Below, one piece after another: positions 3,794 through 8,152 of a stretch of 17,393 nt of DNA. Position 1 is the first letter of the stretch. Each line of letters opens with the position of its first letter. The translations under genes and the position numbers were made by a program. The notes beneath the pieces were generated by a model, which searched no databases, was not told the origin of the DNA, and was given only the letters and a program-made list of their open reading frames with translations. This DNA is from Rhodospirillales bacterium (GTDB lineage: Bacteria > Pseudomonadota > Alphaproteobacteria > Rhodospirillales_A > JACZKS01): positions 1-17,393 of the forward strand of contig JABGRG010000086.1 of NCBI GenBank assembly GCA_018648445.1, read 5' to 3'.

Positions 3794-5359
<1,566 letters not shown>

Positions 5360-5361
5360 TT

Positions 5362-5392
5362 ACCAACCTGCATAAATAATGACCTATTGAGA
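5362..5392 (+). repeat. Left terminal inverted repeat of palindromic element
   Basis: It begins ACCAACCTG and ends TTGAGA. It pairs with 5591-5621 except at 5371 (C opposite T5612) and 5386 (A opposite C5597). Its AT-rich core ATAAATAATGACCT is identical in both ends. Confidence 0.85.
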
Positions 5393-5487
5393 CGGCTTTC
5401 CAAGGCTTTCGGTTAGGAGCGCGCGGCGTAGCGATGCGCGTGCATCGGAAGCTGTGTGCGACGACATCCGAAAGCCTTGGAAAGCCG
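5393..5487. repeat. Internal hairpin 1 of palindromic element
   Basis: The arms at 5393-5412 (starts CGGCTTTCC) and 5468-5487 (ends GGAAAGCCG) are a perfect 20-base inverted repeat. Inside the loop, GCGCGCG (5419-5425) can pair with CGCGTGC (5437-5443) with one G-T pair. The arm starts at the base directly after the left terminal repeat. Confidence 0.85.
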
Positions 5488-5496
5488 CCGTTCCGG

Positions 5497-5590
5497 TCGT
5501 CACTGCGCCCCGTCGGAGGGCGTCGCAAAGGCTTGACGATCAAAGGCATCGCCTGCACTTTAGCTCCTACCCGACGGGACGCGGTGACGA
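5497..5590. repeat. Internal hairpin 2 of palindromic element
   Basis: The arms 5497-5516 and 5571-5590 match at 18 of 20 positions. One difference would be a U-G pair in RNA (T5504), the other a C-A mismatch (C5508). A weaker inner pairing joins 5519-5526 to 5546-5553 with two mismatches. The arm ends at the base directly before the right terminal repeat. Confidence 0.8.
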
Positions 5591-5621
5591 TCTCAACAGG
5601 TCATTATTTATTCAGGTTGGT
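5591..5621 (-). repeat. Right terminal inverted repeat of palindromic element
   Basis: It begins TCTCAACAGG and ends CAGGTTGGT, the reverse complement of the left repeat with two differences. ATTT follows directly, as it precedes the left repeat. Confidence 0.85.
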
Positions 5622-5697
5622 ATTTGGCGGTGATGGTGCCTAAATCTTAAGTATGGTACCCTTCGTACCGACATAGGCAGAATCTGGAGGCGCCGAC

Positions 5698-6141
5698 GTG
5701 AAAGCGCAAAAGATGTGGATTCTAGTCGCCGATGGTGCGCGAGCGCGCATATTCTCAAATGATGGACCGGGAAAAGGGTTGAAACGGGCGGCCACGGACG
5801 ATTTCGTGGCCGAAATTCCGCCGACCCGCGAGGTCATATCGGACAGACCGGGAAGCAAGTCCGGCCCCGGAACCGGCCACGGTTACGCGCCACGCAATGA
5901 TTGGCACAAGTATGAAAAACGCCGCTTCGCGGGCAGTATGGCCAAGATTTTGAACGAAGCGGCCCATCGCAATGACTTTGATCGGCTGGTGCTGGTTGCG
6001 CCGCCCGAACCGCTGGGCGCGCTACGGGCCAAGTTGACGCCGACGGCCCGCGGGCGCGTGGTTCAGGAAATCGGCAAGGACTTGACCGGTCTTTCGGAGC
6101 ATGAATTGCCGACGCAACTGGGCAGGCACTTTATTCTTTAG
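5698..6141 (+). CDS. Host-attachment-family protein (baeRF-related)
   Basis: This 147-aa protein matches the 'protein required for attachment to host cells' family known from Agrobacterium and widespread in alphaproteobacteria. Characteristic parts are the N-terminal strand WILVADGARARIF (7-19), a variable Gly/Pro-rich stretch (about 41-65), a helix with FAGSMAKILNEAA (77-89), the strand LVLVAPPEPLGALR (97-110) and the end GLSEHELPTQLGRHF (131-145). Related sequences have been grouped with bacterial relatives of archaeo-eukaryotic release factors, hence a possible ribosome link; the molecular role is not established and the name may mislead. It looks cytosolic, with no signal peptide. The start is GTG at 5698, backed by GGAGG 7 bases upstream. 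It lies beside the palindromic element and converges with rlmE, overlapping its end by 4 bases. Confidence 0.85.
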   Translation: MKAQKMWILVADGARARIFSNDGPGKGLKRAATDDFVAEIPPTREVISDRPGSKSGPGTGHGYAPRNDWHKYEKRRFAGSMAKILNEAAHRNDFDRLVLVAPPEPLGALRAKLTPTARGRVVQEIGKDLTGLSEHELPTQLGRHFIL

Positions 6142-8078: not shown

Positions 8079-8152
8079 TGGGGCGTAGCCAAGCGGTAAG
8101 GCAACGGGTTCTGGTTCCGTGATCCCTGGTTCGAATCCAGGCGCCCCAGCCA
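8079..8152 (+). tRNA. tRNA-Gln (anticodon CUG)
   Basis: The 74-base sequence folds as a complete cloverleaf: acceptor TGGGGCG pairs with CGCCCCA (8142-8148), the D-stem is GCC/GGC, and the T-arm contains GGTTCGAATCC. The anticodon loop TTCTGGT puts CTG at 8111-8113, reading CAG codons. Discriminator G and an encoded CCA (8150-8152) are present. It resembles E. coli tRNA-Gln in the acceptor, D and T arms. A GTGCTAG sequence at 8055-8061 could be its -10 region, with no convincing -35 box. A terminator follows 2 bases later. Confidence 0.96.

Follow-up and report, generated by a model that had tools for sequence, protein, structure and literature searches.

Background

Two inverted hairpins make up the mobile unit of REPINs. 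Target duplications of 3 bp, of the TNA or TWA type, are typical of the IS5 family (IS1031/ISL2-type) and of PIF/Harbinger, and IS200/IS605 elements are not known to have terminal inverted repeats (TIRs) or target duplications. Bacterial MITEs, such as QMITE2 of Coxiella, are described in the available part of PMC10969869 as short sequences with no recognised gene, TIRs, a target duplication, many copies and the prediction of a stable stem-loop. Excerpts of two other sources give a size of 20-40 bp for REP units (PMC3733652) and report subterminal secondary structures at the ends of IS200/IS605 elements (PMC6006769).

The element described here shares all these MITE traits as they are set out in that part of PMC10969869, and differs in that its terminal repeats are not common to the whole family, in its doubled hairpin with covarying stems and strand-specific wobble, in the spread of the family over a bacterial class, and in that the transposase families and genomes searched yielded no source IS. 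With REPINs and REPs associated with RAYT it has in common an inverted hairpin pair and, according to excerpts of PMC3116915, PMC8266576 and PMC3733652, a high copy number and a non-autonomous nature; however, its hairpins measure about 95 nt and not 20-40, which places them outside the REP size, and it makes a 3-bp TNA duplication. Its subterminal structures are like those in the excerpt on IS200/IS605, whereas it has both TIRs and target duplications and its hairpins are mirror images. The 3-bp target is shared with the IS5 family and PIF/Harbinger, and the C-TNA-G context with IS5 groups, but no transposase bounded by the element ends was found among 26 PF01609 loci, and PF13359 is nearly absent from carriers. 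A possible link to IS5-type enzymes comes from the target triplet, given what is typical of such families.

Results

The window (the whole 17,393-nucleotide stretch of Rhodospirillales DNA that was analysed) carries a single copy of the element according to the covariance model R1, which scored it at 245.2 bits on the plus strand and 150.9 bits on the minus strand, this copy being part of the R1 training set. The element and its surroundings are laid out as follows.

5361..5622, no strand: whole mobile element, 262 bp (empty site in L001/L002; copies in other genomes; R1 match)
5361..5392, plus strand: left terminal inverted repeat, 5' arm of stem P1 (repeat detection; 22 of 31 P1 pairs compensated in alignment A1)
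5393..5487, plus strand: hairpin H1, the conserved motif in sense orientation (R2 bits; 17 of 20 arm pairs compensated in A1)
5488..5496, plus strand: small junction hairpin CCG-TTC-CGG (sequence and fold; pairing in A1)
5497..5590, minus strand: hairpin H2, the H1 motif read on the minus strand (R2 bits; unit listing; 16 of 23 arm pairs compensated in A1)
5591..5622, minus strand: right terminal inverted repeat, 3' arm of P1 (repeat detection)
5358..5360, no strand: left flank ATT, place of the target duplication, degenerate here
5623..5625, no strand: right flank TTT, place of the target duplication, degenerate here
3794..5299, minus strand: guaB (IMP dehydrogenase), left neighbour (Pfam PF00478, E 7.5e-160; listed ORF)
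5698..6141, plus strand: gene for a host-attachment / baeRF-family protein, right neighbour (Pfam PF10116, E 1.1e-36; listed ORF)

Both neighbouring genes point away from the element; the distance to their listed starts is 61 bp for guaB and 75 bp for the host-attachment gene. Among the listed ORFs of 80 aa or more, just one overlaps the element (5277-5558, minus strand), and it had no Pfam match.

The stacked inverted repeats reported by the initial annotation were recovered, with complementarity at 20 of 20 positions in the H1 arms (5393-5412 / 5468-5487; repeat detection) and at 18 of 20, or 90%, in the H2 arms (5497-5516 / 5571-5590; self-BLAST). Its outer arms were also found, although each proved to be one base longer at the outer end (5361-5392 / 5591-5622), and the two P1 arms of 32 nt are 94% complementary by repeat detection. 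The nested palindrome is real and far beyond chance: the predicted RNA fold has an MFE of -161.3, compared with -91.15 +/- 5.03 in 200 dinucleotide shuffles, none of which was as good (z -13.95). The three long stems of what had been described as an exact three-way junction are present, but the predicted fold places a fourth, small stem (5488-5496) between H1 and H2, so that in this model the junction is four-way. This small hairpin has 98% of its cells paired in A1, and CCCTTCGGG occurs there in many of the distant members printed.

A genome scan with a nearby Ppx/GppA protein yielded 80 loci, of which the closest, L001 and L002, both belong to one Rhodospirillales MAG. These two align to the window on both sides and lack the element, the joined flanks being 82% and 81% identical over 597 bp. 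The empty-site comparison proposed earlier thus shows that not every guaB locus has the element. The genome of L001 (G001) carries seven strong element matches elsewhere, one of them cut by a contig end, while that of L003 had no match better than E 0.33. When two candidates per genome were scored, 38 of 317 genomes of the order had matches at E 1e-5 or better, some of them partial. Three sister genomes (G010, G011 and G012) had at least 40, 41 and 42 matches, respectively, counting partial and split ones, with the scoring limited to 40 of the 155 to 298 candidates per genome; 30 of the 40 in G010 were full length. The search for further copies in relatives, also suggested at the outset, therefore found many. 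Across 81 copies scored with a crude ORF caller, flanking genes were in tandem in 37, convergent in 26 and divergent in 18. By the same caller, a long ORF runs across 34 of 103 copies, an overlap that is doubtful because many such ORFs are probably spurious in high-GC DNA. Alignments under 100 columns were left out of one copy comparison. One copy (L119/L085, G001:C17) has about 28 extra bases at the H1/H2 junction.

The target site was read from an empty site and from flank counts. In G010, copy L171 is bordered by TTA at both ends; in G011 and G012, its sister genomes, the corresponding site carries no insert and TTA occurs there once. For the counts, 166 places (131 full-length and 35 partial) were reduced to 103 by removal of duplicates, and one lacked a usable flank, leaving 102 full copies. 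The flank pair was TNA/TNA in 82 of these; the middle base agreed in 60 of the 82 (30 expected), a level that none of 20,000 permutations reached. Identical TNA flanks are thus present in 60/102 copies, and 42/102 flank pairs do not match. The commonest base was C at position -4 (47/103) and G at +4 (46/102), which makes the target a palindrome, C-TNA-G. Unlike many other copies, that of the window, with flanks ATT/TTT, shows no exact TNA duplication. Two readings made from the window copy alone, a TA duplication of the Tc1/IS630 type and a 4-bp ATTT duplication, were dropped after the L171 empty site and the flank counts had pointed to TNA. Outside these counts, some distant members have matching flanks, TNA in L308, L310 and L325 and CTAG in L312, L313 and L319, and others (L306, L307, L309 and L318) do not. 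Some flanks are shared between copies with different partners: in L197 (G012), the left flank is similar to the one beside L193 (G011) and the right flank to the one beside L182 (G011), and L164 (G010) and L216 (G012) have a common flank joined to different partners. Such cases, and some of the unmatched flanks, look like the outcome of either exchange or recombination between copies rearranging the genome, or short-read misassembly.

Compensatory change in the stems, another check proposed initially, was strong. In A1, the whole-element alignment of 33 of 35 representatives (two of odd length were left out), 92.1% of cells are paired and 69 of 109 pairs changed on both sides. The covariation was 0.358, as compared with 0.134 +/- 0.005 after shuffling and at most 0.100 with slid partners. 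About half of the 42 G010-G012 copies are without up to four standard P1 pairs and yet multiplied, which indicates that perfect P1 pairing is not required. At consensus positions 9 and 253, GC, AT, AC and GT intermediates coexist among copies of one genus. Accordingly, the three outcomes named by the initial annotation as speaking against a mobile or structured element (a single copy, no compensation, the same sequence at all guaB loci) all came out opposite.

Placed beside the reverse complement of H2, H1 displays the same motif, although the stems differ. Its order is a free stem of about 19 pairs, approximately GGnTAGGAG, an inner stem, GCGATGC-n-GCATCG, nnAAG, the inner stem again, CGACGnCnTCC and the closing stem. 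In the window, R2 (whose training set included both units) gave H1 92.9 bits on the plus strand and 24.8 on the minus strand, and H2 75 bits on the minus strand; with H1 in sense on plus and H2 in sense on minus, there is one sense unit per strand. Each end of the element is therefore a terminal repeat plus an inward-reading hairpin of about 95 nt with free stems and conserved loop letters. The 82 hairpin units measured 86-112 nt, nearly all of them 93-98. While the MITE-type reading offered at the outset held, this twofold inverted, strand-specific hairpin motif had been missed in it.

To compare the strands, we used A3, which comprises 67 of the 82 units; the other 15, which were duplicates or had an irregular form (from L218, L226, L234, L309, L310, L314, L321, L322 and L323), had been removed by eye ahead of the wobble test. 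In sense orientation, the inner stem of the 67 units had 56 G.T and 10 A.C cells; by unit, 37 had more G.T, four had more A.C and 26 tied. As the sequences are related, they are not independent trials, and in 31 less redundant units the counts were 22 and 6. The core folded better in sense than in antisense in 63 of 67 units. The outer arms of the units had 121 G.T against 62 A.C, but 56 against 57 once two fixed-wobble columns were removed, or 16 against 17 per sequence. However, outer-arm energies favored sense in 46 units and antisense in 16 of the 67, so that the energy contrast is not confined to the core; P1 energies stood at 17 against 10 of 33, and the apical stem at 11 against 6.

Without fixed-wobble columns, the G.T and A.C counts of A1 were 13 and 11 in P1, 10 and 10 in the outer stem of H1, and 15 and 20 in that of H2. 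The H1 inner stem had 67 and 37 (14 and 10 without the fixed columns). That of H2, read on the plus strand, had 5 and 37 (3 and 22), so its sense strand is the minus one; the H2 arms, also on plus, had 61 and 30, which goes against a minus sense strand and comes mainly from two columns. A one-strand RNA spanning the whole element was rejected for two reasons: once fixed-wobble columns are left out, P1 and the outer stems have no G.T preference, and the inner stem favors one strand in H1 and the other in H2. The G.T preference of the inner stem means that the hairpin probably works single-stranded, as RNA or ssDNA. In DNA too, G.T pairs better than A.C, and for this reason the wobble test can tell recognition of a single strand from that of a duplex, but not RNA from ssDNA.

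Among 385 sampled alphaproteobacterial genomes, R1 found matches in 37 at E 0.001 or better, mostly to the full model, with a few that were short or at contig ends. Across the phylum, 7 of 398 sampled genomes were positive; five appear to have been already in the order sample, and G895 and G975 were not placed. The 23 distant loci viewed were all 257-286 bp long and, in the orientation set by the model, 15 of them do not begin with TACC; their ends include TGTGGTG, TAGGAGCC and AAGCATG. A named carrier is the Thalassospira marina chromid NZ_CP024200.1, with hairpins of 55.7 and 30.5 bits between annotated genes near 700 kb. Searched with the window element, plasmid and phage collections gave only 26-27 bp matches (E 0.8-0.9), and phages gave none with the L103 copy. 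With L313, L332, L327, L318 and L312 as queries, the plasmid collection returned only Thalassospira marina, for L327, and a pattern scan of viral contigs had 0 matches.

With the window and 20 further loci, distant members included, Rfam 15 had no match on the element at the gathering threshold. Four sub-threshold matches fell on the window copy, the best being mir-1294 (E 0.012, 22.3 bits versus 90); the other Rfam matches were a tRNA gene at 8079-8149 of the window, on the plus strand, and suhB in the flank of L321.

We looked for a partner transposase with the element ends and found none in the two families, PF01609 and PF13359, and the genomes searched. A search of six genomes gave 26 PF01609 loci, none bounded by matching ends on both sides: L257 and L270 have an element end on one side only, and L273, in which TACCAA and TTGGTA are separated by 1.1 kb, shares six bases and has 18-bp repeats of its own. 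PF01609 is present in G010 only as a 60-position fragment. PF13359 had no match in eight of ten carrier genomes, and what matched in the other two was weak or contained a stop. Of the pairs of ends considered as candidate autonomous elements, the one 2.26 kb apart in G031 was discarded on reading the translations by eye, as the ORFs of the interval read as unrelated cellular genes, and the one 1.65 kb apart in G001 (C32) because its right end is part of a complete copy; of a third pair, spanning 4.6 kb (L238), the ends were viewed.

Discussion

The element inserts as a unit, duplicates a 3-bp TNA in a C-TNA-G context and reaches dozens of copies in some genomes. By the features tested (262 bp of non-coding DNA, 32-bp TIRs of 94%, a TNA duplication that is degenerate in the window copy, and dispersed copies in relatives), it is of MITE type, and it carries in addition a doubled strand-specific hairpin motif. 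Of the options first put forward, a MITE, a palindromic intergenic repeat or a structured RNA, the data support a MITE-type insertion. We believe that the most probable explanation, in which we have a good though incomplete degree of confidence, is a non-autonomous MITE-type transposable element whose family is spread through the Alphaproteobacteria, with two inverted ends, each made of a TIR and a hairpin, a DDE transposase acting in trans and recognition of the folded hairpin. Under this proposal, a DDE-type enzyme encoded elsewhere would move the element, and the hairpin would be recognised in a folded single-stranded form, be it RNA or ssDNA, which would be why the stems must pair and yet many sequences are allowed. 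The doubled inverted layout would then place a hairpin in the correct orientation on each strand and at each end. It is also conceivable, although unlikely, that the mobilising machinery reads the folded hairpin and not the terminal sequence, so that an RNA- or ssDNA-reading system would still make a DDE-like 3-bp duplication. Such reading would explain both the conservation of the loop letters while ends and stems drift across the class from TACCAAG to TGTGGTG and TAGGAGCC, and the absence of any IS found with the same ends.

Other explanations have to be weighed against this MITE with recognised hairpins. The strand-specific RNA-like hairpins, the very stable fold, the UUCG-like junction loop of many members and the position of the window copy between divergent gene starts would suit a domesticated regulatory RNA repeat, transcribed from neighbouring genes as a processing, stability or termination signal of the kind proposed for other bacterial MITEs, with mobility as only its way of spread; the palindrome would provide a sense hairpin whichever way it was read. 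We find this somewhat unlikely, since the element is absent from the orthologous position next to guaB in L001 and L002, the gene layouts around the copies are mixed, and R1 found no copy in 80 related named loci around ppx, not all of which reach guaB, other than one weak match of 56 bases in L045 (19.5 bits, E 2.5e-4). Rather unlikely in our judgement is an ordinary MITE with functionless hairpins, in which template switching or gene conversion between the palindrome arms during replication would copy the mutation of one arm onto the other and so produce the compensation. The multiplication of copies with broken P1 pairs is in keeping with it, as are the intermediates that coexist in one genus and the equal G.T and A.C counts of P1 and the outer stems outside the fixed columns. 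It fits poorly, however, with loop letters kept across members that have different ends, with the strand-specific G.T excess of the inner stem, which persists in the less redundant units, and with the single motif that H1 and the reverse complement of H2 retain despite differing stems.

It seems quite improbable that the element is REPIN-like and is moved by a RAYT/Y1 (HUH) nuclease recognising ssDNA hairpins. Its two hairpins, inverted, conserved in their loops and free in their stems, do resemble the REPIN layout, and the families and genomes searched yielded no matching IS; but, to our knowledge, Y1 transposition makes no 3-bp target duplication, and the element has one. Moreover, its 95-nt hairpins contrast with the REP size given in the excerpt of PMC3733652.

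The family is a natural test of whether a transposon end is read by shape or by sequence, because evolution has already produced variants of its stems, ends and loops, and it is a further source of structured, strand-specific RNA or DNA at many sites. It is a mobile DNA family found across the sampled Alphaproteobacteria, for which 0 of 21 loci passed the Rfam 15 threshold on the element and for which the accessible portions of open PubMed Central papers gave no description, either of the family or of a doubled strand-specific hairpin motif.

Variant forms exist as well. Single-hairpin forms were seen in L342, L344 and L350, the first two with flanks TTA/TTA and TAA/TAA, and L240, L363 and L364 are stem-only mini palindromes with element ends but no hairpins. 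In G609 (L329-L333) there are hairpin units for which no partner was recognised, and several of them have similar sequence to their left and right; these are perhaps doubles whose second hairpin is missed by R2. Lastly, many isolated terminal-repeat ends, some 10-40 bp long (TNATACCAAG..., TAGTGTGGTG...), lie directly next to the start or end of a gene in G031, G008 and G001 (L237-L256) and in G421 and G649 (L351-L369), and may be remnants of excision or deletion. Matches to the end pattern, in totals that include the ends of complete copies, and to reversed-pattern controls numbered 41 and 3 in G031, 18 and 3 in G008, 39 and 5 in G421, 20 and 10 in G001, and 17 and 12 in G649.
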